Of a stretch of DNA of 64,000 bases, positions 39,312 to 51,882 are shown in pieces. Origin of the DNA: Cognatiyoonia koreensis. GTDB taxonomy: Bacteria; Pseudomonadota; Alphaproteobacteria; Rhodobacterales; Rhodobacteraceae. Position 1 is the stretch's first letter. Every line of letters starts with the position of its first letter. The stretch lies in assembly GCF_900109295.1 (NCBI RefSeq), contig NZ_FOIZ01000002.1:868001-932000 (forward strand). Direction: 5' to 3'. The notes below the pieces were generated by a model. It was not told the origin of the DNA and did not search any database. It worked only from the letters and a program-made list of their open reading frames with translations. Made by a program: the position numbers and the translations under genes.

Positions 39312-39388
39312 GATCCCGTGGCTCAACTGGACAGAGCAGCCCCCTCCTAAGGGGCAGGTTGCAGGTTCGAATCCTGCCGGGGTCGCCA
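39312..39388 (+). tRNA. tRNA-Arg (anticodon CCT)
   Basis: A 77-base cloverleaf with encoded CCA. The acceptor arms GATCCCG and CGGGGTC pair with one G-T. The anticodon stem GCCCC/GGGGC holds the loop CTCCTAA with anticodon CCT, which reads AGG. The T arm GCAGG-TTCGAAT-CCTGC is perfect. The last 47 bases are also the left attachment repeat of the integrative element, whose insertion keeps the tRNA whole. Confidence 0.95.
39342..39388 (+). repeat. Left attachment repeat (attL) within tRNA-Arg
   Basis: Forty-seven bases, from CCCTCCTAAGG through the encoded CCA, identical to 51836-51882. The bases outside differ on both sides (CAGCC versus GGTT before, AAAC versus TTTC after), which fixes the repeat limits. 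Confidence 0.92.
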
Positions 39389-40398: not shown

Positions 40399-40868
40399 GC
40401 ACAACCGATTCCACCGAAGCGCAAACAGCAAGGCGACCCATGTCATACGCTGGCGCTGCTGACACGGGACCTTGCGAGGGGCGGCACGCCTCCCCTTCGA
40501 ACCCCACCGGCGCGGGCAAAGCCCCCGCCAAAGAGCCGCTGACCGAGACCTTCGTCTTCCGCTGCACCGCGTCCGAGAAGGCCCAACTGCGCGCCAAGGC
40601 CGAGGCCGCTGGCCTGCCTGCCTCGACCCTCCTGCGCGAGGCGCTTGGTCTCACTGAAGCCCGTCGCCGCAAGCCGATCCCGCGCGTCGATCCGGCGCTG
40701 GTGCTGGCCGTCGGGCGTATCGGCGGCAACCTCAACCAGATTGCGCGCTGGCTGAACCACGCCATGAAGGTCGGGCGCACCGACCTCGACACGCTCACCG
40801 TTGCGCGCCGCCTCGTAGTGATTGAACGCCAGCTTGCCGCGCTTCTCGATGAGGCGCGGCAGTGCTGA
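40395..40868 (+). CDS. mobC: MobC-like relaxosome protein
   Basis: A 157-aa protein with a disordered first 45 residues and then a ribbon-helix-helix/MobC region: TFVFRCTASEKAQLRAKAEA and VGRIGGNLNQIARWLNHAM (near residue 112), the latter strongly conserved in MobC proteins. Such proteins bind oriT and help the relaxase to open the strands. The start overlaps the upstream HTH gene by four bases, and the end overlaps the relaxase gene by seven. Confidence 0.85.
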   Translation: MSTTDSTEAQTARRPMSYAGAADTGPCEGRHASPSNPTGAGKAPAKEPLTETFVFRCTASEKAQLRAKAEAAGLPASTLLREALGLTEARRRKPIPRVDPALVLAVGRIGGNLNQIARWLNHAMKVGRTDLDTLTVARRLVVIERQLAALLDEARQC

Positions 40869-42415
40869 TCAAGTTCTTCCCCAACGGCAAAGGCGCGGGC
40901 GCAGGGCCGGTCGGTTACCTCGTGGCCAAGCGCGTTCTGGCCTATGACGGCAACCGCGACCTGATCCGCGATGCGGACGGCCAGCCCAAGACCGTCATGC
41001 GCGATCCACTGCCCGAGGTCCTGCGCGGTAATCCTGAGCGCACCGAAGCCCTGATCGACGCCAGCCGCCACCAATGGACCTACCGCGCGGGCGTGATCAG
41101 CTTTGCCGACAGCGACACCCCGACAGAGGACCAGCAGGCAGACGTCATGGACGCGTTCGAGCGGCTGGCCTTCGCGGGGCTGGACCCCGAGCAATATGAA
41201 GTGCTCTGGGTCCGCCATCGCCACGAAGGCCGGGTCGAGCTTCACTTCTGCACGCCGCGCCTGGAACTGACGACGGGCAAGAGCCTCAACATCGCACCCC
41301 CGGGCTATCAGGACGCCTATGACAGTCTGCGCGATGTGATGAACCAGCGCCACGGCTGGGCCGACCCAATGGAGCTGGAGCGCACCCAAGAGGTGCGTGA
41401 AACCGTCGAGGCCACAACCCGCGCGCAAGGCCGCGACGAACTGCACACCTGGATACAAGACCAGATCGATATGGGCCTGATCGCGGATCGCGCGTCCATG
41501 ATCGACGCACTCACCGACGCGGGCTTCGATCTGCCCCGCACCGGCAAGGCCTACATCACCGTCCGGGACCCCGACACCGGCGAGCGCTGGCGGTTGAAAG
41601 GAGAGATTTTCCATGAAGACTGGCAAGCCGACCCGGCTGAGCGAGAAACTGAACGCGGAGCTCGACACGATCCGGGCCGAACACGTCGCCTCGATCTCGT
41701 CCCAGCTCAAAGGCTTCAGGATCGATTTGAAGAACATTGTGGGCGCCGCGCAGCATACCATCGCGAGCGATACGCGCCGCTTTCAGACCGAGACGGTGAG
41801 TATTTTCGAGATGCGGCTGAGATCGATCCGTCTCTGGCTGACGATCTCGCCCTGGCTGATCGCGGCGATGGTGCTGACGGGGATCGCCTTGATGATGGCC
41901 GCGAGCTTTTTCTGGACGGTGCACCTGACGCGCTCGGAGCTGACGGAACTGGGCCTGACAAGGATCGAACGGCCCGAGGGGACCTGGCTGATCCTGGACC
42001 CATCGAAGACGCGCCTACGCACCTGCACGATGGGCGAGAGACACGTCACCTGCATTCGGATCGAGGAGGATTAGATGACCCAACTCACAGCCTTGGAACG
42101 CGACTTGCTCGCTTGCGTCGAGCGGTTGGTGACGGCCTCAGAGGCCTCCGCGAGGGATTTGACCGCCTTGGAGACACGCTCGACTGGCAGGATCGAGAGG
42201 GAGCTGGCTGGCTTGAAAGACTGCGTGACCTTGCTCATTCGTTCACAAGCCGCATCCATGAAGGCCTTGAGCGGATTGCTGAACGAGGAAGCGAGCTACA
42301 AGACGCTGGACGAGAGCTTGCAGCAGAGCTTGACCTTAGCGAAGGCCGCCGCCGAGAGATTGAGGGACAGCTAGACAGCCAGGAGGCGCATGCGGAGAGG
42401 GGACTTACGCACTAG
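40862..42415 (+). CDS. Relaxase/mobilization nuclease
   Basis: A 517-aa protein. The N-terminal 250 residues are a relaxase domain: GPVGYLVAKRVLAYDG at the start and WVRHRHEGRVELHF (near residue 120), with the His residues that bind the metal. It should nick oriT and lead the strand into a recipient. The C-terminal half is very charged (Asp/Arg/Glu-rich) and low in complexity. Two further genes are nested in another frame at 41613-42074 and 42075-42374 inside this half, so its unusual composition may partly reflect the overlap. Mob family was not determined. Confidence 0.85.
   Translation: MLIKFFPNGKGAGAGPVGYLVAKRVLAYDGNRDLIRDADGQPKTVMRDPLPEVLRGNPERTEALIDASRHQWTYRAGVISFADSDTPTEDQQADVMDAFERLAFAGLDPEQYEVLWVRHRHEGRVELHFCTPRLELTTGKSLNIAPPGYQDAYDSLRDVMNQRHGWADPMELERTQEVRETVEATTRAQGRDELHTWIQDQIDMGLIADRASMIDALTDAGFDLPRTGKAYITVRDPDTGERWRLKGEIFHEDWQADPAERETERGARHDPGRTRRLDLVPAQRLQDRFEEHCGRRAAYHRERYAPLSDRDGEYFRDAAEIDPSLADDLALADRGDGADGDRLDDGRELFLDGAPDALGADGTGPDKDRTARGDLADPGPIEDAPTHLHDGRETRHLHSDRGGLDDPTHSLGTRLARLRRAVGDGLRGLREGFDRLGDTLDWQDREGAGWLERLRDLAHSFTSRIHEGLERIAERGSELQDAGRELAAELDLSEGRRREIEGQLDSQEAHAERGLTH
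41613..42074 (+). CDS. MobB-like membrane protein nested inside the relaxase gene
   Basis: A 153-aa protein in a different frame, wholly inside the relaxase gene. It has AGGAGAG nine bases before its ATG. Residues 1-65 are helical and charged (KLNAELDTIRAEHVASISSQ). A strong hydrophobic pair of spans follows (LWLTISPWLIAAMVLTGIAL, continuing to about residue 105), then a small soluble end. RSF1010 likewise has a membrane-associated MobB coded within mobA. The same role, bringing the relaxosome to the membrane, is inferred. Its stop lies just before the next nested gene, which is in the same frame. Confidence 0.72.
   Translation: MKTGKPTRLSEKLNAELDTIRAEHVASISSQLKGFRIDLKNIVGAAQHTIASDTRRFQTETVSIFEMRLRSIRLWLTISPWLIAAMVLTGIALMMAASFFWTVHLTRSELTELGLTRIERPEGTWLILDPSKTRLRTCTMGERHVTCIRIEED
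42075..42374 (+). CDS. Second nested small protein in the relaxase gene
   Basis: A 99-aa helical, probably coiled-coil protein (MTQLTALERDLLACVERLVT) read in the same frame as the MobB-like gene and inside the 3' part of the relaxase gene. A GAGGAGG site sits a few bases before the ATG, which follows the upstream TAG directly. No known family was recognised. The strong ribosome-binding site and direct coupling to the MobB-like gene argue that it is translated. It may be an accessory mobilization protein. Confidence 0.6.
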   Translation: MTQLTALERDLLACVERLVTASEASARDLTALETRSTGRIERELAGLKDCVTLLIRSQAASMKALSGLLNEEASYKTLDESLQQSLTLAKAAAERLRDS

Positions 42416-42464: not shown

Positions 42465-43124
42465 TCAAAACAAAGCAGACGAATTCATCACCAACCCATC
42501 GTGAAGTGCTGCATCTAGAACTTTCTTTCTAAGTTTGGCTCTAAGTTTTTTTCTGCCAGGCGTCTCAGCGGGTGGTACCTCTGTACAGGCGATTTCAGCG
42601 TGTGATGGATTGTCCGATAGACCAGTATCATAGACTGCGATCGCACGCTCATTATCGTGATTAATGCGGCGGATGTTCTCGACTGACAGCTCAATTGAAC
42701 CATGGTTCGCCTTTTTTGGGCTATCTTCGACTAGTCTTTCCGCCCGTAGGTCATAGTCCTCAAGTGTAGTGTGAGCTTTTCGGTCTGTAGATATGCCATT
42801 GCTCATCCGGCTTTCGAAAAGCGTTGGTTCGACCCGACCATCATGAGCCACAAAGCCTTTGCTGGTCACGACTGTGACCAAGGTTTCACTATCCAACACT
42901 GGTCCCGGTGAATCCGAGCTTACTGAAACAACCTCGCATTCGCAGCGGGGATGTGCTTTTCCAAGTTCGCTCCAAAACTCCTTTCCGATCTCGCCCCTAC
43001 GCCCAAAGAACGTCCTGCAATCAGTTTCCTTGCTGTTGGCGGTGGTGCTGCCCCAGAAATTCGGAAAGAACCTTCCAAATACCGCTCGTACTAGGTTCAG
43101 CAACGTTCTCAATTCCCTCTTCAA
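42465..43124 (-). CDS. Hypothetical protein, last gene of the unknown three-gene cargo operon
   Basis: Up to 219 aa if read from a TTG at 43124, which would overlap the upstream gene by 104 bases; the true start may lie later, but no in-frame ATG exists until codon 107. The middle part reads VLDSETLVTVVTSKGFVAHD, the end is basic (RKKLRAKLRKKVLDAALHDG). No signal peptide, membrane span or known domain was recognised. It belongs with the two genes upstream, which are in the same direction and overlap. Confidence 0.5.
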   Translation of the reverse strand: MKRELRTLLNLVRAVFGRFFPNFWGSTTANSKETDCRTFFGRRGEIGKEFWSELGKAHPRCECEVVSVSSDSPGPVLDSETLVTVVTSKGFVAHDGRVEPTLFESRMSNGISTDRKAHTTLEDYDLRAERLVEDSPKKANHGSIELSVENIRRINHDNERAIAVYDTGLSDNPSHAEIACTEVPPAETPGRKKLRAKLRKKVLDAALHDGLVMNSSALF

Positions 43125-43704
43125 TCAGTTCGATTTCATCTGAGTCATCGCCCCAGCACATTGTTGTTCGGCCGGAGCCGTCGAAGTTTAGCTCCGCGTA
43201 GCCAGAAGGGCCGTGCCAGTACATTGCGATCTCCCCATCAGGGCTGGGTGCAGCACTTCGAGGTTCACTACCAGAAAACCGCCGTCGAAATTCATCCAGG
43301 AAGTTCAGCGTGGCGTAGATCGCAGGGAGTGGGATCTCTTTTGCCCCGTCTCCGTCCCAATCGTCGCTGTAGGAGAGAAATTCTCTGACGCGGGATTCCA
43401 GCCTTGATGCTTGGTCTTCAGTGTACTGATTTGACCACAACCGAGTTGCTGGAGCGGCTGTTGCGTTCGGTTCCACTCGACCCAACTCTCGAAGCCGGGC
43501 CCGATTGGCTGCATGCTCGTATTCGGCGATTGCAATACGCCCAGCATGCCGCGGTGCGTACCATGCATCGGCAGACTGTTCGACCTTGCTTACCCAGTCT
43601 CTTGCTTTGTATTCATCAGTATGGAGGTCGGACAGTTTTTCCAGTACGTCGGTCGCGGATATTGACCGCCAAGTTTGAAGTTCGCTTGTGCTATCTGACA
43701 TCAT
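43021..43704 (-). CDS. Hypothetical protein in the three-gene cargo operon
   Basis: A 227-aa protein, soluble and acidic. Notable stretches are FLSYSDDWDGDGAKEIPLPA (residues 108-127) and GEIAMYWHGPSGYAELNFDG (about 155-175). The first resembles a motif seen in uncharacterised proteins encoded beside TIGR04255-type genes; I could not check this. It starts four bases inside the end of the upstream gene and overlaps the next one. The DNA is more A+T-rich than in the relaxase module. Confidence 0.6.
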   Translation of the reverse strand: MMSDSTSELQTWRSISATDVLEKLSDLHTDEYKARDWVSKVEQSADAWYAPRHAGRIAIAEYEHAANRARLRELGRVEPNATAAPATRLWSNQYTEDQASRLESRVREFLSYSDDWDGDGAKEIPLPAIYATLNFLDEFRRRFSGSEPRSAAPSPDGEIAMYWHGPSGYAELNFDGSGRTTMCWGDDSDEIELIEEGIENVAEPSTSGIWKVLSEFLGQHHRQQQGN

Positions 43705-44588
43705 TGCAGTCCAATGCTATTCGACATCTGGTCGTTCAAAATCTCGCTAAGTACGTCTTTATCTATCTGGTGTAGGCTCTGAAAATTATCCAGACCACGG
43801 TCCAAGATTTGTTTGCCAAGACCTTTCTCCCCAATCCACGGTTCGCGGTGTGAGGATATCTGATGGAAAAGCACCATAGAAAGGTCTCGGGTCTTTTCTT
43901 CGTCATTGTCACGAAGATCAGCATTGATCCGCGTAAGTACTCTGTGCCGAGAAGGTTCATCCCGTGTCTCGAAAAAACCTGTATGAAAGTGGAAATTCTC
44001 AACTCTGTCAAAAACATGGGAAGGAATGTATCGACTGCCTGGTCTAAGGATTCCACTAGCGTCAAACTCATCGTATTTTCCGGTCGCTCTGAACAGGTCC
44101 GTGTACTCGGAAGCGAACGAGATAACTGGATTGTCTTCCGGTACAAGGCCCATGGCCGCCCCAAGAAATTTTTGGGCATGAGGCCAGACTTCAGCCCATC
44201 GTGTATACCGACCAGCAAGAAAAAGGACTCGGCTTTCGTCGAATCTCAAGCCAAACTCAATCGATCCATCTTTCAGCAGTGCTTCATATGAAAGCCCTAC
44301 GATACGCTCATCGTCAAACGCTACACGGTTAGAACCAGGTTGTAGAAGCACAGCATTCGAGACCGAGCGCCTTGGAAGTTCCTCGCGCCAGTTCCTCGAG
44401 TTATTGTCAAACCGTTGGAAGTCTTGCTCCGAAAAATCCTGTCGAAATTGAACAATGAAAACGACCCGCTGGAGTGCATTGTCGCTACGTCCTGACGCAC
44501 TGTATTCCATCAAAACGAAGCTTTCATATTTGGGTACCTGATTGCGAGCGGCTTTGCGCCTGGTTTTGTTGAGAATGTATGGTGCCAT
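43701..44588 (-). CDS. TIGR04255-like conserved protein
   Basis: A 295-aa soluble protein. VVFIVQFRQDFSEQDFQRFD near the start, WAEVWPHAQKFLGAAMGLVP in the middle, GFFETRDEPSRHRVLTRINA and an end rich in NFQSLHQIDKDVLSEILND recall TIGR04255, a widespread protein family with no known function that often lies in variable genome regions. It is the first gene of a three-gene minus-strand operon, coupled to the next by ATGA. The assignment is by resemblance and should be held lightly. Confidence 0.55.
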   Translation of the reverse strand: MAPYILNKTRRKAARNQVPKYESFVLMEYSASGRSDNALQRVVFIVQFRQDFSEQDFQRFDNNSRNWREELPRRSVSNAVLLQPGSNRVAFDDERIVGLSYEALLKDGSIEFGLRFDESRVLFLAGRYTRWAEVWPHAQKFLGAAMGLVPEDNPVISFASEYTDLFRATGKYDEFDASGILRPGSRYIPSHVFDRVENFHFHTGFFETRDEPSRHRVLTRINADLRDNDEEKTRDLSMVLFHQISSHREPWIGEKGLGKQILDRGLDNFQSLHQIDKDVLSEILNDQMSNSIGLQ

Positions 44589-44931: not shown

Positions 44932-45246
44932 TCACACTTTGGGCCTATGTGGCAACTCGGCCGCAACGAGCGGTTCAATGTTGGATAAATCGACATCTTT
45001 GACAGCCTGCGCCATGTCGTAATTCGTCTGCAAGTTCATCCAGTAGGCCGGGGTGGTGTTGAACGCGCGGGCGAGGCGCAGAGCCATGTCAGGCGTAATC
45101 CTTGTGGTACCTTTTATCAGCCGTTCGATCCTCGTTCGAGGCACACGCAGATGCCGCGCAAAGGCAATAGCCCCCATGTCCAAGTACTCAAGATGGAGTT
45201 CTTTCAGGACTTCACCCGGGTGCATTGGTCTTTCAATCAGGCTCAT
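44932..45246 (-). CDS. higA: HigA family addiction-module antitoxin
   Basis: A 104-aa XRE-type protein: MHPGEVLKELHLEYLDMGAI, RTRIERLIKGTTRITPDMAL and AYWMNLQTNYDMAQA are the hallmarks of the HigA/VapI antitoxin family. HigA normally binds HigB toxin and represses its own operon. Here the gene just upstream, which overlaps its start by ATGA, codes for a 61-aa protein that does not look like HigB, so the toxin is lost, replaced or unrecognised. It could also act as an island regulator. Confidence 0.85.
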   Translation of the reverse strand: MSLIERPMHPGEVLKELHLEYLDMGAIAFARHLRVPRTRIERLIKGTTRITPDMALRLARAFNTTPAYWMNLQTNYDMAQAVKDVDLSNIEPLVAAELPHRPKV

Positions 45247-45545: not shown

Positions 45546-45920
45546 ATGGGCAGCACGGGATCGGGACGTTTTTCAGACTACTCAGGAACAGGCGGGGACA
45601 CAGGCGCTGGCGGCGGTGGGGCAAGTGGAGAGGATCGTTGCAACCGTGCATTTGCATGCGTCTTGGAGGAAGTCGAGCAATGTGATTACTTCACGGCAAA
45701 TCAAGACGTCCCACCAACAAACACAGCATTGACGCTGGAGCTGCGCGGAAGGCTTATGGCTATCGATCCAAACGATTTAAGCGTAGGTGCGCTTCCTACT
45801 CGCCTCAATTATCTTGCCGATTGTCTAGGCGCGGGCTTCTCTTACGACGGGCGTGTGATAGCTTCTACGTCGGGTTCAGTAGCCTCAGTGAACGTGGACT
45901 TCGGCCCTCGTCAGCCATGA
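45546..45920 (+). CDS. Small glycine-rich protein, possible conjugation substrate of the QueC-like enzyme
   Basis: A 124-aa protein starting MGSTGSGRFSDYSGTGGDTG: Gly/Ser-rich to residue 28, then a compact domain with cysteines at 32, 38, 46 and 93 (RCNRAFACVLEEVEQCDYF). Removal of Met would expose an N-terminal Gly. The GGGGA before the ATG at 45546 supports this start over an earlier in-frame ATG at 45504 inside the promoter. The gene is first in the four-gene operon and overlaps the next by ATGA. Family not recognised. That it is modified at its N-terminus by the QueC-like enzyme is an inference from Qat and type IV CBASS systems. Confidence 0.7.
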   Translation: MGSTGSGRFSDYSGTGGDTGAGGGGASGEDRCNRAFACVLEEVEQCDYFTANQDVPPTNTALTLELRGRLMAIDPNDLSVGALPTRLNYLADCLGAGFSYDGRVIASTSGSVASVNVDFGPRQP

Positions 45921-47248
45921 ACCGCAGTACTGACCTGTTGCTAATGGGGGAAGTCTTTGTAGATTTTACCCTCCCGAATGCAAGTGCTCAAAGTAAATTG
46001 CGGCTGGGAGGCATTGTCCACGCTGCACGAGGTTTGTGGGCCGTTGATCAGAGTTTTGCTGCAGCTGTAGTGTGCCCTGCGTACCTCGTTGATAATGCGA
46101 GAAAGTATCTTGAGCATCTCGGATGCACGGAGTTCATTTGGGTGGCCGATGTAGAAGGTTCACCCAATGTAATGGCCATTGGTGATCCAACAGAAATTGC
46201 CGATCAAGGATACCAAGACATTCTAAGGGACGAGAAATCGGTTAATTTCCTTGAACACAGTGCAGACATCGGAAAGTTCAAAAGGTGCCTTCTATTCCCT
46301 GGTAAGTTTGATCTGCCAACGGTTGCTGACTTAATCTCTGATGACGCGGAAGTAAGTTTCGATATCGCGTACGATCTTCCGGAGACAAAGCCACTAGTGG
46401 CATTTAAGGGTCGCATACACGCACTGATTACCTCTACGTCGTCCAGCTTGTTTTTGGAGAACGCGGCTACTGATGTCACGTGTTTGATTAATGATCTTCG
46501 TCAGTTTTCCCCAACATGCATTCTGTTGAAAGAGAACCGTGGTGGAAGCCGTCTTTTCGATCTTGATAGCGATACGGTCGAAGAAATTCCTGCTTTGCTT
46601 GGAGAAACAGTCAATTCGGTTGGTGTCGGCGATGTATATTCGGCGGTTTTTGTTTCGCTTATCGACGCGGGCATGCGGGATGCAGGTTGGAAAGCTGCTC
46701 GCGCCGCAACGTGCTATGCCCAAACCACGTTTCCTGATGATTTTAAACGAGACGTGGGGCGGAGCCTCACTCTCTCAGTTGATCAGATGCATGACCTTGG
46801 TGGAACTTTCGTGCCTTGGCATGGTCGCCCAAAACTCCAAATCTACTTCGCTGCCCCTGACTTCACCTACATTGACCGGAATTTTATTGATCAAGCACTT
46901 GAGGCCCTCGCTTACCATAACTTCAAAGTCAGACGTCCTGTTTTTGAAAATGGCGAACTAGAGAGAGACAGCACAGTTGATCAAATGCACACGATGTTCA
47001 CGGCTGACATCGCACTGCTTAAAGACTGTGAAATTGTCTTTGCTGTGCCTTTGACACGTGATCCCGGAACCTTAGTCGAAATGGGATGGGCTATGGCCAC
47101 TGATGTTCCTGTTATCACTTTCGATCCACTACGGGAGAACACTAACACAATGGTGGTCGCTGGGAGCAAGGCATACTCAGATAAACTCGATATCTGTCTC
47201 AACGGCCTTTTCGAGGCCATGTCTAGCATCAGAGCATCCCGCCAATGA
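45917..47248 (+). CDS. PfkB-type kinase fused to nucleoside 2-deoxyribosyltransferase-like domain
   Basis: A 443-aa fusion. Residues 1-295 resemble the ribokinase/PfkB fold: LLLMGEVFVDFTL, LRLGGIVHAARGL and the anion hole/catalytic loop NSVGVGDVYSAVF (Asp239). Residues 306-440 resemble nucleoside 2-deoxyribosyltransferases: LQIYFAAPDFTYIDRNFIDQ at the start and AVPLTRDPGTLVEMGWAMA with the likely nucleophile Glu388. The parts suggest phosphorylation and base release or exchange on a nucleoside. It lies between the small glycine-rich protein and the QueC-like gene, overlapping each by four bases, so it must work with them. Substrate unknown. Confidence 0.78.
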   Translation: MNRSTDLLLMGEVFVDFTLPNASAQSKLRLGGIVHAARGLWAVDQSFAAAVVCPAYLVDNARKYLEHLGCTEFIWVADVEGSPNVMAIGDPTEIADQGYQDILRDEKSVNFLEHSADIGKFKRCLLFPGKFDLPTVADLISDDAEVSFDIAYDLPETKPLVAFKGRIHALITSTSSSLFLENAATDVTCLINDLRQFSPTCILLKENRGGSRLFDLDSDTVEEIPALLGETVNSVGVGDVYSAVFVSLIDAGMRDAGWKAARAATCYAQTTFPDDFKRDVGRSLTLSVDQMHDLGGTFVPWHGRPKLQIYFAAPDFTYIDRNFIDQALEALAYHNFKVRRPVFENGELERDSTVDQMHTMFTADIALLKDCEIVFAVPLTRDPGTLVEMGWAMATDVPVITFDPLRENTNTMVVAGSKAYSDKLDICLNGLFEAMSSIRASRQ

Positions 47249-47865
47249 AACGCGCACTTGTCATGGTATCAGGCGGTCTCGACTCGACCACGGTATGCCA
47301 TTTGCTCGTCAAAGCAGGTACTGAGGTTCACCCAATATTCTTCGATTACGGTCAGCATTGTGCGGAAACTGAGTGGGCCAAGGTCAACGAGGTGCTGCCC
47401 ACGGAGGTATTGCCACCAGAGCGCATAAATCTGTCGGATATCTTTAAGGGTTCGACGTCGCGAATGATCGTTGAGGCAGACCTTTGGACCGAAGCTGTTG
47501 TAGATGACGATCTGTATATCCCATACCGAACGATGTTGTTCTTCGCTTCTGCAGCCGCTCGAGCACAAACCGTTGGTATCCTTGACGTCTACTCGGGGTT
47601 CATAAACAGCAATCACGCCAAGGAAATCGACTGTAGTACCGAGTTTATGAATGGTCTCGATGAACTATCCGTCGGTGTTGGAGCGGTTAGATTTCACGCG
47701 CCTTTCGGAACTTGGTTAAAGAGCGATGTCGTGCGCGAAGCCGTTAAGTTGGGGGTGCCTGTAGGGCGCACGTTCTCGTGTCAGGCTTCAAGCTCATTTC
47801 CTTGTGGGGCTTGCCCGAACTGCGTAGAGAGGCTTAACGCTCTTACAGAGGCTGGCATTGCGTGA
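47245..47865 (+). CDS. QueC-like 7-cyano-7-deazaguanine synthase family protein
   Basis: A 206-aa PP-loop ATPase. MVSGGLDSTTV (residues 7-17) is the ATP loop and the C-terminus has the zinc site Cys179, Cys187, Cys190 and Cys193 (SCQASSSFPCGACPNCVERL). QueC turns 7-carboxy-7-deazaguanine into preQ0. The rest of the queuosine pathway (queD, queE, folE, tgt) is not here, and the central loop reads IPYRTMLFF where housekeeping QueC has a PxRN. It is therefore more likely a QatC/Cap9-like enzyme of a defence-type system that couples deazaguanine to a protein. Coupled to the preceding gene by ATGA. Confidence 0.82.
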   Translation: MKRALVMVSGGLDSTTVCHLLVKAGTEVHPIFFDYGQHCAETEWAKVNEVLPTEVLPPERINLSDIFKGSTSRMIVEADLWTEAVVDDDLYIPYRTMLFFASAAARAQTVGILDVYSGFINSNHAKEIDCSTEFMNGLDELSVGVGAVRFHAPFGTWLKSDVVREAVKLGVPVGRTFSCQASSSFPCGACPNCVERLNALTEAGIA

Positions 47866-47880
47866 TTTTGGGGGACTCGT

Positions 47881-48561
47881 ATGCAAGAACAGACTGACTA
47901 TTCCAACGCTCTGTACGCTGCTAGGTGTATTGCAGACCATGCGGTCGGAGAAGGCATCTTAAGAGCGAATGTTCCTGTCCGCCCAGTCTATCACCACATG
48001 GGTGCAGTTCTTGCTGATTCGGTTCTCCAAGCGGGTTTAAACTACTCAACGATTGTTCGGCCTCGCGTGCAGGCGATATTGGAAATCTTCCCACACGCCA
48101 CGACGTTAAATGCCGTCACGCAGATCATTGAGACGCAAGGCAGCGGAAAATTCCTTCAATGGAGGCACGAGGAGAAGGTTTCCCGCTTTGATGACCTTGT
48201 GGAATTCCTTGTCGGGTCTCGTATTGAAGATACCTCGGATTTGAGCGAAGCGCTGCTTGATGATGCCTTTCGCATTGATATTCGAGAAGTTAGAGGCATT
48301 GGCCCGAAGACAGTGGACTATATGGCCTGCCTAGTTGGTGTCGATTGCATTGCTGTTGACCGTCACATCAGAGGGTTCGCTGAATTGGCCGGGTTAGAAG
48401 AGGATGGCTATGATTTTCTGCGTGACACATTCAGTTTTGCAGCGGATCTTTTGAGCATTTCGCGCCGGGAATTTGATGCTTCAATCTGGCATTTTCAGGC
48501 AACGAAAAACTCTCGTCAGTTGTTCCTTGATTTCGATTGTACACCTAGTAGCGAAATCTAA
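47881..48561 (+). CDS. OGG/EndoIII-like helix-hairpin-helix glycosylase family protein
   Basis: A 226-aa protein. Residues 125-175 hold the HhH-GPD core: IREVRGIGPKTVDYMACLVG with Lys143 and CIAVDRHIRGF with Asp160, which fit the catalytic Lys and Asp of OGG1/EndoIII. No 4Fe-4S cysteine loop is present. It starts 15 bases after the QueC-like gene with a GGGGGA site. OGG-like genes sit next to QueC-like genes in type IV CBASS, so these two likely act in one pathway, perhaps by releasing or attacking a modified base. Its true substrate is unknown. Confidence 0.75.
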   Translation: MQEQTDYSNALYAARCIADHAVGEGILRANVPVRPVYHHMGAVLADSVLQAGLNYSTIVRPRVQAILEIFPHATTLNAVTQIIETQGSGKFLQWRHEEKVSRFDDLVEFLVGSRIEDTSDLSEALLDDAFRIDIREVRGIGPKTVDYMACLVGVDCIAVDRHIRGFAELAGLEEDGYDFLRDTFSFAADLLSISRREFDASIWHFQATKNSRQLFLDFDCTPSSEI

Positions 48562-48653: not shown

Positions 48654-49553
48654 TTAGTGTTTGAAGCAATTCTCTCGGTGCCAAGTCACAAATTCCCCTC
48701 TAGGGCGGTTTGCCAGGCGACCAGGTGCCAAGAGCTTACCGGAAGAATTAACCATCGCTGTCACCGCTTTCAGGTCGTTACTCTGCCTCGACACTAAAAT
48801 GGAGAGATCATCGGCCAGCCCCACCAGCCCACGATCAAACATCCAGTGTGCGGTTCCAGAAAGCGCTAGCCCATTGCTCACGATATCGGGCCCATCATGC
48901 TCGACGGGCCTGATGTGGGCGGCTTCAACCTCGGCCCGCCCGCCACCGTTGATCAAACGTAGACCTGTGATAGCGCAGCGCTCGCCATATGCGCGCAGCA
49001 CGTTTTTTCTAAAGTTCCGGTCCCGAACCGCTCTGTTGGTAAGTTGATTTATGCGCTCGCGCGCAGGCAGGTGTTGGAAGGGGGCTTGGTCATCTTGAAA
49101 GCCAATAGTAGCCTCAAGGTCTCCCACACGCGGCAAAACATCGTCTTCAGCGCCTAACCCGCGCTCGATGATCCTAGCGAAGTCTTCATTCGATAGCGTT
49201 CTGACAGCTGCTTGTGCACGGCCGGACATGCGGCCTTCATCGTTCAGCAGGCCTCTCTCAACGATGTTTTTGACGTCGCGGAACGGCACAGGATCGCCGA
49301 AATCGAGATACGTTCTGGGCTCGATCACGGCCAAGTACATATCAGATTTTCGTGGGTCAGAAATGATCTCTTGCACCTTTGCGACAGCGAAGTACCCCTT
49401 CGTGTCTTTCACCTTGCTTGGCTCAAGATAGACTATCCAGTCGCCTTCGCACTGCTGAGCGCGGGACAGATATTGGCGAGGGAACTGATAGCGTTCGGAG
49501 GGAACGTCATCGTAGATCGAGTCACTGCGGTGAATGAACACTCCGAAGGCCAT
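48654..49553 (-). CDS. HNH endonuclease with N-terminal EVE/PUA-like region
   Basis: A 299-aa protein. The C-terminal half (residues 185-275) is an HNH_2-type nuclease: AYGERCAITGLRL, then VEAAHIRPVEHDGPDIVSNG and GTAHWMFDRGLVGL, which hold the His/Asn/His. The N-terminal 110 residues (VFIHRSDSIYDDVPSERYQF, GDWIVYLEPSKVKDTKGYF) look like an EVE/PUA-type fold, known to read modified bases. Such a layout fits a restriction enzyme for modified DNA. It is convergent with the QueC-like operon. No methyltransferase partner is present. Confidence 0.78.
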   Translation of the reverse strand: MAFGVFIHRSDSIYDDVPSERYQFPRQYLSRAQQCEGDWIVYLEPSKVKDTKGYFAVAKVQEIISDPRKSDMYLAVIEPRTYLDFGDPVPFRDVKNIVERGLLNDEGRMSGRAQAAVRTLSNEDFARIIERGLGAEDDVLPRVGDLEATIGFQDDQAPFQHLPARERINQLTNRAVRDRNFRKNVLRAYGERCAITGLRLINGGGRAEVEAAHIRPVEHDGPDIVSNGLALSGTAHWMFDRGLVGLADDLSILVSRQSNDLKAVTAMVNSSGKLLAPGRLANRPRGEFVTWHRENCFKH

Positions 49554-50514: not shown

Positions 50515-50862
50515 ATGACAGAGACCGACAAATCAGACAGCTCGCAAATCCTCGGCCTTGGGAAAAAGCCTTCCGAATGGGTCGAGCTGATGGCGGATAT
50601 GGGCATCGACATTTCTGAGCGGACCTTGCGCGAGCGGGCAAACGACACAGGGGCATTCTACCGTCTTGGGCGGACTATGCTGATCACGCCAGCGCAGATC
50701 GACACGATTTTTGAAGGAGGTCAGTCATGCCGCTCCAAATCTACAAGAGGGGTCGCTTCTACTGGGCCAAGGGTTGGGTCGAGTACAACGGCAGGCCCAT
50801 CGCAGGTCCATACAGGCGAAGCACTAAGGCATCTTCAGAAGCAGGCGCACGGGACTGGATAA
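50515..50862 (+). CDS. Excisionase-like DNA-binding protein
   Basis: A 115-aa protein. Residues 14-65 form a MerR/excisionase-like winged helix (WVELMADMGIDISERTLRER, FYRLGRTMLITPAQIDTIFE). The Ser/Thr/Arg-rich tail (SCRSKSTRGVASTGPRVGS) is coded over the first 136 bases of the integrase gene in another frame, a common arrangement in roseobacter islands. It should bind the att arms and direct excision. The ATG at 50515 was chosen as upstream codons look non-coding. Confidence 0.72.
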   Translation: MTETDKSDSSQILGLGKKPSEWVELMADMGIDISERTLRERANDTGAFYRLGRTMLITPAQIDTIFEGGQSCRSKSTRGVASTGPRVGSSTTAGPSQVHTGEALRHLQKQAHGTG

Positions 50863-51821
50863 ACCGCGAGACCGAGCTTCAGATACGTCGCCATGTGGTT
50901 GGTGACGAGCCCAGCAAGACGTTCTCGGATGCAATCATGCTCTACAACGCTGCACCAAAGACCGCGAAGCAGTTGATCCCCATTGTCGAAGAGATTGGCG
51001 ACATGCCCCTAGGTGCGATCTCTGGTGCCCTTCTGAAAGGCCTTGGCCCGAAACTCAAACCGAAAGCTTCGACTGACACTTGGTGGCGCGAGATCGTGAC
51101 GCCAGCGAGTGCGGTCATCAACAATGCGCATGAGCTGGAAGGCACGCCGCTGATCCGGGTGAAGCCGTATGACAAATTCGAGCGCATTGCCCAGGACAAG
51201 CGACGCGGGAAGATCAGCCGCGTGGAACGCAAGCCTGCCGACAAGGAGTGGATCGAGGCCTTCTGCCGCGCCGCTGATCCTTACAACGCCGCATTGGTCC
51301 GCTTCATGTTTGAGACGGCGGCGCGAATCGATCAGGCTGTCTCGATTGAGCCTGACGATCTGCGACCCGCCGAGAACAAGGTCAGGGTGAAGGCGCAGAA
51401 GGGCCACCCGGAAAGCTGGATCACCGTTTCGCCACAGATGATGGACGAGCTTCTGGCGCTACCGCCGAAGCGTCCCAAGAACCGCAAGACCGGTAGGTTC
51501 ATGAAACCGCGTGTCTTCGGCTATGGAAGTTCGACAGGCTACAACACGCGTTGGAAGACGATCTGCAAGAGCGCGGGCATCCCGTACCTGTCAGCACACC
51601 CGGCGGGGCGGCATGGGTTCTTCACTGAATTGGTCGTTCGCCAGGGCGTCGATCCTGTCACTGCAGCCAAAGCTGGCCGCTGGTCTGACCCCAATTTGCC
51701 AATGCGCATCTACGCCCACGCAGAGACGGATGAGGCCGATGTCAGGGCCCGTTTTCGTACAAACCACGTACAGGCGGACACTGTACAAATACCCAAGAGC
51801 AAGAAATCACAGAAGGAATAG
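50727..51821 (+). CDS. int: Tyrosine-type site-specific integrase
   Basis: A 364-aa recombinase. The catalytic residues can be placed: Arg in MFETAARIDQAVSI, His and Arg in SAHPAGRHGFFTEL, Trp/His in AGRWSDPNLP and the nucleophile Tyr in MRIYAHAETD. The N-terminal 60 residues (MPLQIYKRGRFYWAKGWVEY) are an AP2-like arm-binding domain. The gene ends 15 bases from attR in tRNA-Arg(CCT) and carries GTACAAA arm-like repeats in its 3' end. A GGAGG precedes the ATG, inside the excisionase gene. Confidence 0.93.
   Translation: MPLQIYKRGRFYWAKGWVEYNGRPIAGPYRRSTKASSEAGARDWINRETELQIRRHVVGDEPSKTFSDAIMLYNAAPKTAKQLIPIVEEIGDMPLGAISGALLKGLGPKLKPKASTDTWWREIVTPASAVINNAHELEGTPLIRVKPYDKFERIAQDKRRGKISRVERKPADKEWIEAFCRAADPYNAALVRFMFETAARIDQAVSIEPDDLRPAENKVRVKAQKGHPESWITVSPQMMDELLALPPKRPKNRKTGRFMKPRVFGYGSSTGYNTRWKTICKSAGIPYLSAHPAGRHGFFTELVVRQGVDPVTAAKAGRWSDPNLPMRIYAHAETDEADVRARFRTNHVQADTVQIPKSKKSQKE
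51757..51789 (+). repeat. GTACAAA repeats beside attR (predicted integrase arm sites)
   Basis: GTACAAA at 51757-51763 and 51783-51789, and a near copy GTACAGG at 51768-51774, within the end of the integrase gene. The first two are 11 bases apart, the same spacing as the pair at 39492 and 39503 beside attL. Matching repeats at both ends are what arm-type binding sites of a lambda-like integrase would look like. Confidence 0.5.
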
Positions 51822-51835
51822 CGCTATGAACGGTT

Positions 51836-51882
51836 CCCTCCTAAGGGGCAGGTTGCAGGTTCGAATCCTGCCGGGGTCGCCA
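51836..51882 (+). repeat. Right attachment repeat (attR)
   Basis: Forty-seven bases identical to the 3' end of tRNA-Arg(CCT) at 39342-39388, without the 5' part of the tRNA. This is the restored half-site after integration. Confidence 0.92.

Follow-up and report, generated by a model that had tools for sequence, protein, structure and literature searches.

A conserved four-gene set on an integrated island of Cognatiyoonia koreensis: a candidate protein–nucleobase conjugation module with a QueC-like enzyme

Introduction

What might a QueC-like enzyme be doing in a genome that yields no match for the enzymes that make 7-carboxy-7-deazaguanine (CDG)? The question is raised by an operon of Cognatiyoonia koreensis, located at 45546-48561 (+) in a 64,000-nucleotide stretch of contig NZ_FOIZ01000002.1 (positions 868,001 to 932,000). 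This whole stretch is called the window, and coordinates are given within it.

All four open reading frames (ORFs) of the operon are present on the same strand. Gene 1 (45546-45920, +; 124 residues, beginning MGSTGSGRFSDY) encodes a small protein with an MGSTGSG N-terminus, a glycine-rich linker and a HIRAN-like C-terminal domain. Gene 2 (45917-47248, +; 443 residues) encodes a fusion of a PfkB-like kinase with a nucleoside 2-deoxyribosyltransferase (NDT). Gene 3 (47245-47865, +; 206 residues) encodes a QueC-like enzyme, and gene 4 (47881-48561, +; 226 residues) an OGG/EndoIII-like HhH glycosylase with Lys143 and Asp160. ATGA overlaps join genes 1 and 2 and genes 2 and 3, and 15 nucleotides separate genes 3 and 4; the compact operon seen in a first-pass annotation of the sequence, with its ATGA joins among genes 1–3, is thereby confirmed. 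The family of the window operon is called class A, and a sister arrangement class B.

The comparison that suggests itself is with systems in which QueC-family enzymes act on proteins. Protein–nucleobase conjugation has been shown for type IV CBASS. For Qat, conjugation has been proposed, and the relevant sections leave the reaction undecided (PMC13279940).

Results

The four genes form a dedicated, conserved system. Loci were fetched through gene 2 alone, with a profile built from 23 homologues, 74 in genome contigs and 15 in viral contigs. All four genes occur in identical order and strand in 67 of the 74 genome-contig loci and in 12 of the 15 viral-contig loci, and the arrangement is therefore not due to chance. 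The titles of the locus records name Proteobacteria, Bacteroidota, Planctomycetota, Firmicutes, Acidobacteria and others. Seven genome loci are incomplete. A contig end cuts L016 and L052, and L077, whose gene 2 is incomplete, lies close to the start of its contig. The gene-2 match of L054 is incomplete, with no downstream gene found, L057 has QueC only as an 87-residue piece and no OGG, and the two Firmicutes loci L072 and L076 lack a recognizable OGG. In the three incomplete viral loci (L078, L082 and L092) the stretch ends within the set or soon after it.

Because the loci had been chosen through gene 2, genes 2, 3 and 4 were also searched for separately in 295 genomes of the host's own family. 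Gene 2 has a match in five of these genomes and gene 4 in the same five; gene 3 occurs there too, at 333 bits or more, adjoining genes 2 and 4. A further 28 family genomes, matched by the gene-3 model at 56–99 bits, are taken to carry other QueC proteins. The first-pass annotation had asked whether the four genes might rarely be found together; the conservation of the set in 67 of 74 loci, and the convergence of separate searches on the same five of 295 genomes, show that they are not. Elsewhere, gene 2 was found in four plasmid records (E 1e-20), two of them of chromosome size. The phage collection gave no gene-2 match at E 1e-10, and a blastn search of E. coli genomes, in which a single Pectobacterium locus served as query, gave no class-A match. 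Among the matches listed from open-licence PMC papers, none describes the four genes as a set.

The feature that ties the set to conjugation is the N-terminus of gene 1. A gene-1 homologue is present in 87 of 89 loci, and in 85 of these 87 it starts at an MG[S/T] motif (84 MGS and one MGT; ATG in 84 and GTG in one), in a count for which the starts were chosen by the motif itself. The two without a motif start are L028 and L089, the latter cut at its end. Less biased counts come from annotated starts and from the start codons of the loci: in an independent protein search with 121 matches, 113 of the 120 listed begin with MG as annotated, and the other seven are longer, with MGS internal. Conservation is far higher over the first 12 residues than in the linker that follows, although at positions 1–3 it is partly built in, the alignment having been made from sequences already trimmed to MG[ST]. 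According to sections of PMC13279940, substrates of the QueC family begin in a similar way, the CBASS CD-NTase with MGGS and QatB with MGTS, and Gly2 is essential. A plasmid CBASS locus used as a control likewise encodes a protein that begins MGGSGGGFFSN. Since the small protein starts with MGS as the CBASS and Qat substrates do, the link to protein–nucleobase conjugation is stronger than the first-pass annotation could show.

No Pfam family matches gene 1 over the cut-off. When its C-terminal region was compared with HIRAN by hhalign (seven HIRAN matches were found and six sequences used), class A scored 33.8 (probability 77%) and class B 32.0 (67%), against maxima of 13.4 and 15.0, respectively, for 30 column-shuffled controls each. 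We regard the domain, with moderate confidence from these profiles, as HIRAN-like and nothing more specific.

The QueC-like enzyme belongs to the QueC family and stands apart from its housekeeping members. Gene 3 matches PF06508 at E 8e-32 and scores 95 bits, below the NCBIfam QueC cut-off of 150.3 bits. Its closest solved relative by sequence is Cap9 (9NTO, E 3.7e-14), and it is 26% identical to the Cap9 of locus L170. The ATP loop (SGGLDS) and the zinc site with its four cysteines, described as intact in the first-pass annotation, are retained, as is Asp129. Class A and 26 canonical QueC rows have in common the SGGxDS and YGQ motifs, Pro and Arg in VPxRN, Asp and Cys in YPDC, a Lys and all four cysteines of the zinc site. 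In class A, VPxRN reads PYRT or PYRN, and the zinc motif of the window is CQ(x)6CGACPNC, its Gln present in 98% of class-A rows. A tree was built from 24 class-A rows (the window and 23 of 86 locus sequences), seven class-B rows, 18 of the 26 canonical rows and one Cap9. Class A forms one clade (100/99) apart from the canonical rows and from class B (100/100); Cap9 joins class A weakly (39/17), possibly through long-branch attraction. Identity with housekeeping QueC, a grouping that the first-pass annotation had wanted checked, is rejected on the separate clade, the 95 bits against 150.3 and the reading EIDC in place of YPDC.

The C. koreensis genome, which is 99.99% complete, gave no match for QueD-type PTPS and none at E 1e-3 for QueE with TIGR03365, the sole QueE model used, which found matches in 10 of 14 control genomes, E. 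coli and Caulobacter among them. Its only full-length QueC match is gene 3 of the operon, so that housekeeping QueC has no match, and its single TGT match lies on another contig. The missing QueC is not caused by the system, since most of the 295 own-family genomes lack a QueC match as well. Among 51 hosts (C. koreensis and 50 genomes hand-picked from the 74 loci, some of them incomplete), 17 have no PTPS match, 25 no QueC match of at least 183 bits and 15 neither; a PTPS/QueD-type match is present in 34. The four-gene set is kept where CDG is apparently not made. Because the host gave no match for CDG-making enzymes, the base is probably not host-made CDG.

These results bear on a rival reading, true CBASS-style deazaguanylation with CDG drawn from the environment, from deazaguanine-making phages or from hosts that carry the pathway. 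Such a source would suit the 34 of 51 hosts with a PTPS/QueD-type match, and an enzyme whose closest solved relative is Cap9 and whose base motif keeps its Asp. It agrees poorly with the replacement of the motif Tyr by an invariant Glu, with the absence from C. koreensis of QueD, QueE and housekeeping-QueC matches, and with the 15 hosts that lack both PTPS and a strong QueC. We consider this reading unlikely, if still worth holding in view. The deazaguanine basis assumed in the first-pass annotation is, on the same evidence, not borne out.

Gene 2 matches NDT (PF05014) at E 8e-13, and its PfkB match (PF00294, E 0.16) is below the cut-off. The PfkB (GG, GxGD) and NDT (Y, PD, D.GT..E.G) positions that were checked are kept in 87–90 of 90 aligned sequences. 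Over 252 columns the protein is homologous to the PfkB-NDT of class B (hhalign 99.4%), whose members match ribokinase and NDT structures.

Class B itself was revealed by weak plasmid matches of gene 2, of which seven loci (L163–L169) were read among 21 weaker matches. In all seven a gene for a small tail protein comes first, followed by PfkB-NDT and then the QueC-like gene. Four of the tails start with MSGSG; the other three start with MSGGG, MSSGDK and, in an archaeon, MGGGSGG. Among 46 database homologues of the small protein, 43 begin MSGS. The small proteins of the two classes are homologous in their C-terminal domains (hhalign 93%, E 2.7e-7). OGG-like genes lie near at least three of the seven loci, not in a fixed fourth place, and dGTPase, TIR or restriction genes lie near six (all except L165). 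Of 5426 complete E. coli genomes, 22 have a class-B match, which covers 80% or more of the query in 18 of them. One E. coli locus adjoins an annotated 8-oxoguanine glycosylase gene, together with genes for a DNA adenine methylase and an anti-phage dGTPase.

Some class-B loci show further features. In L166, L167 and L185 (E. coli KMi029) the QueC-like gene is overlapped at its end by a dehydrogenase/nitroreductase gene, possibly an extra class-B component. The upstream tail protein of the Halorubrum locus (L163, 2382-3470) has 362 residues; its Gly/Ser/Glu tail (MGGGSGGYERP...) is acidic and very long, and its C-terminal domain apparently occurs in two copies. On a Roseivivax plasmid (L165, 5991-6530), an annotated VUT-family (queuosine salvage) gene lies directly downstream of the class-B locus.

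Class B is apparently the published QueC Cluster 4, whose zinc motif, CH(x)5CxxCxGCxK, is found in six of the seven class-B rows. Both of our classes read YGQ(x)5E, against YGQ(x)6E as printed for Cluster 4 in a section of PMC13329287, where it may be counted otherwise. Sections of the same paper report a PfkB-NDT neighbor in about 89% of Cluster 4 and suggest purine salvage (PMC13329287). Its sections on Cluster 4 mention neither a small protein nor OGG, and its main text does not contain "ogg" or "glycosylase". Cluster 4 appears to be the sister class of the window family rather than the same family, and plain membership of the window set in Cluster 4 is rejected, since zinc motif and tree position differ. 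A kinase-NDT gene beside QueC is already in print, apparently in the sister class, according to sections of PMC13329287.

The published suggestion can be extended to the window operon. The operon would then recycle an unusual base as a purine or deazapurine salvage operon, with the tail protein as regulator or chaperone. The kinase and NDT activities fit such a role, and salvage is the reading in the sections on the related Cluster 4 (PMC13329287). It leaves unexplained the near-invariant MGS tail, the OGG-like glycosylase, the patchy distribution (five of 295 genomes), the island and the defense-rich flanks, and we think it quite unlikely.

Gene 4 matches no Pfam family over the cut-off. The PADLOC OGG model matches it at E 4e-5, GxGxKT and DRH are present in the window protein, and Lys143 and Asp160, which the first-pass annotation had picked out, are the same in all 82 OGG-like sequences that were aligned. 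The same OGG model matches 12 of 398 genomes of the phylum; no CBASS locus was recognized by eye in four stretches taken from these genomes, and for that reason they were dropped as a control and the plasmid CBASS locus was used.

An OGG-like glycosylase beside a HIRAN-like domain suggests DNA, and the operon might edit or remove bases in DNA, whether its own or an invader's; a modified DNA base would then come from the QueC-like enzyme, and NDT could provide a deoxynucleoside. A transglycosylase, polymerase or methylase is, however, missing from the cassette, and queuosine genes other than TGT were not found in the host. DNA modification or repair therefore seems to us decidedly improbable.

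The surroundings of the set point to defense. Two sets of flanking ORFs, 92 and 93 in number, matched 364 and 280 PADLOC models, respectively, and 98 control ORFs matched 27, these counts being of models, many of them redundant, and not of proteins. For the flanks, 470 candidate ORFs gave 204 selected and 185 scanned. For the control, 100 ORFs were picked and 98 scanned, from 20 stretches at hand-chosen round coordinates in 20 host genomes; the selection rules differ, the control taking the five longest ORFs per stretch and the flanks up to four longest near the cassette. Recurring flank models among the matches listed are Septu PtuA/PtuB (best E 7.5e-244), dGTPase, AriA, AbiLi and a Gabija-like GajA. 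The association with defense islands that the first-pass annotation had wished to see examined is thus apparent in the flanks.

In C. koreensis the operon resides on an integrated island, as the first-pass annotation had stated. Perfect 47-bp direct repeats, 12.5 kb apart, flank it: the left one (39342-39388, +) is the 3' part of a tRNA-Arg(CCT), and the right one (51836-51882, +) is identical. Between them are a tyrosine integrase (50727-51821, +; PF00589, E 1.3e-8) and a relaxase (40862-42415, +; PF03432, E 8.9e-6). An HNH_2 endonuclease gene (48654-49553, -; E 3.2e-9) on the same island is convergent with the operon and is possibly a second defense gene. Two further island ORFs, at 43701-44588 (-) and 43021-43704 (-), have no Pfam match at E 0.01.

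Directly upstream of the operon, and divergent from it, is an HTH_3 protein (44932-45246, -) that we take to resemble a HigA-type antitoxin; no partner toxin was identified for it. The operon itself might be read as a toxin–antitoxin or nucleotide-depletion device, with gene 2 destroying nucleotides and being held in check by the other genes. Mobile carriage would fit, and relatives of the NDT fold include a CMP N-glycosidase. Nevertheless, the Pfam, PADLOC and NCBIfam matches of the four proteins include no toxin family, and four conserved genes with three enzymes are unusual for a toxin–antitoxin pair. This is the reading to which we give least credence; it is highly improbable.

Discussion

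The answer to which we incline, if only somewhat, is N-terminal nucleobase conjugation within a defense-type module, the base being more likely not host CDG. The first-pass annotation had envisaged a deazaguanine-based protein or nucleotide modification module, perhaps acting against phages; a modification module remains the favored reading, with the conjugation link of the MGS tail and the defense-rich flanks added to it, and the deazaguanine basis is doubtful.

In outline, the set would be a mobile four-gene module, most likely directed against phages. The QueC-like enzyme may activate a guanine-like nucleobase with ATP and join it to the exposed N-terminal glycine of the tail protein. Removal of the initiator methionine would expose Gly2 of gene 1, and the tail could then enter the active site of the QueC-like enzyme and be conjugated there, by analogy with the action of Cap9 on the CD-NTase tail. 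PfkB-NDT might supply or handle the base, phosphorylating a nucleoside and cleaving or transferring its base, and would thus hold the place of TGT (Cap10) in type IV CBASS. The OGG-like enzyme could excise a base from DNA, either to supply it or to cut invader DNA, and the HIRAN-like domain may dock the tagged protein on DNA.

Several observations weigh against this proposal. According to sections of PMC13279940, Cap9 uses Y115 to stack on the base and D117 to read the N1/N2 edge, positions at which QatC has two threonines. All class-A rows compared have Glu in place of the Tyr of YPDC, and since the base-stacking residue is thus replaced, the reaction of gene 3 may differ altogether. Since no source of CDG was found in the host, the only conjugation chemistry characterized for the QueC family may also not apply, although the base-edge-reading Asp is kept in gene 3 and 34 of the 51 hosts have PTPS. 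The tails of class B mostly start with MS and not MG. Genes 1–3 occur without a recognizable OGG in L072 (Paenibacillus) and L076 (Cohnella). The support for HIRAN, at 77% and 67% by hhalign, is moderate; Pfam HIRAN reaches only E 0.13, in three of 79 gene-1 members, and for single members some unrelated families give lower E-values. Finally, the redundancy of the PADLOC models tempers the enrichment in the flanks.

A bolder form of the proposal, which we offer tentatively and think rather unlikely as a whole, is that the tail protein is tagged with a nucleobase other than CDG. In its most daring version, the base might come from invader DNA, or from nucleotide pools altered by infection, through the OGG-like and PfkB-NDT enzymes, to be adenylated by the QueC-like enzyme and fixed to Gly2. 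Activation of ring carbonyls is familiar from GMP synthetase and TilS, and the HIRAN domain of HLTF binds 3' single-stranded DNA ends. The HIRAN-like domain could sit on a DNA end left by the glycosylase-lyase, and the excised base would serve as a covalent alarm tag. The window class and its sister class B would then be two branches of a third family of nucleobase–protein conjugation beside type IV CBASS and Qat.

The choice of base, its target and the purpose of the attachment would be easier to address in a compact, cyclase-free set of apparently soluble enzymes. Since neither QueD nor QueE has a match in the host, which base it is becomes a directly testable question. If the proposal is true, a related QueC family now placed under purine salvage would be recast as probable defense, and its class-B form occurs in E. 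coli.

The set can finally be placed among its relatives. With housekeeping QueC, gene 3 shares the SGGxDS loop, YGQ, the zinc cysteines and PF06508; it differs in its score below the NCBIfam cut-off, its own clade, EIDC for YPDC and PYRT/PYRN for VPxRN. With the HhH-GPD DNA glycosylase-lyases (OGG/EndoIII), gene 4 has in common an HhH motif with catalytic Lys and Asp. Cluster 4/class B resembles the window set in its neighboring PfkB-NDT gene, its gene order, and its homologous gene-1 domain and gene 2, but has CH(x)5CxxCxGCxK where the window has CQ(x)6CGACPNC, a separate clade, mostly MSGSG tails and no OGG fixed in fourth place.

In qatABCD, as in the window set, a QueC-family enzyme is accompanied by a tailed partner protein; according to sections of PMC13279940, the tail of the Qat partner is flexible and its MG motif essential. 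The cassette, however, has no QatA ATPase and no QatD TatD nuclease. QatC has about 400 residues and a Thr/Thr base motif, against 206 residues and Glu/Asp in gene 3, and the core of QatB is helical, whereas gene 1 is HIRAN-like by profile. Membership in either CBASS or Qat is rejected: the CD-NTase, Qat ATPase, TGT and TatD nuclease that the first-pass annotation had listed as missing are indeed no part of the cassette, none of the four proteins matches CD-NTase or TGT in Pfam, PADLOC or NCBIfam, and the base motif differs. Nor does the set include a CBASS effector, and gene 3 departs from Cap9 in that the Tyr of the Tyr/Asp base motif is Glu, the Asp being kept. Yet type IV CBASS is analogous to the window set in composition: a QueC-like enzyme, a Gly-tailed protein beginning MG, a base-handling enzyme and, in the PADLOC model set, an OGG-like gene. 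Its acceptor feature, the MG N-terminus, reappears here on a different protein, the putative acceptor encoded by gene 1 (85 of 87 loci), and PfkB-NDT is found in place of TGT (Cap10).

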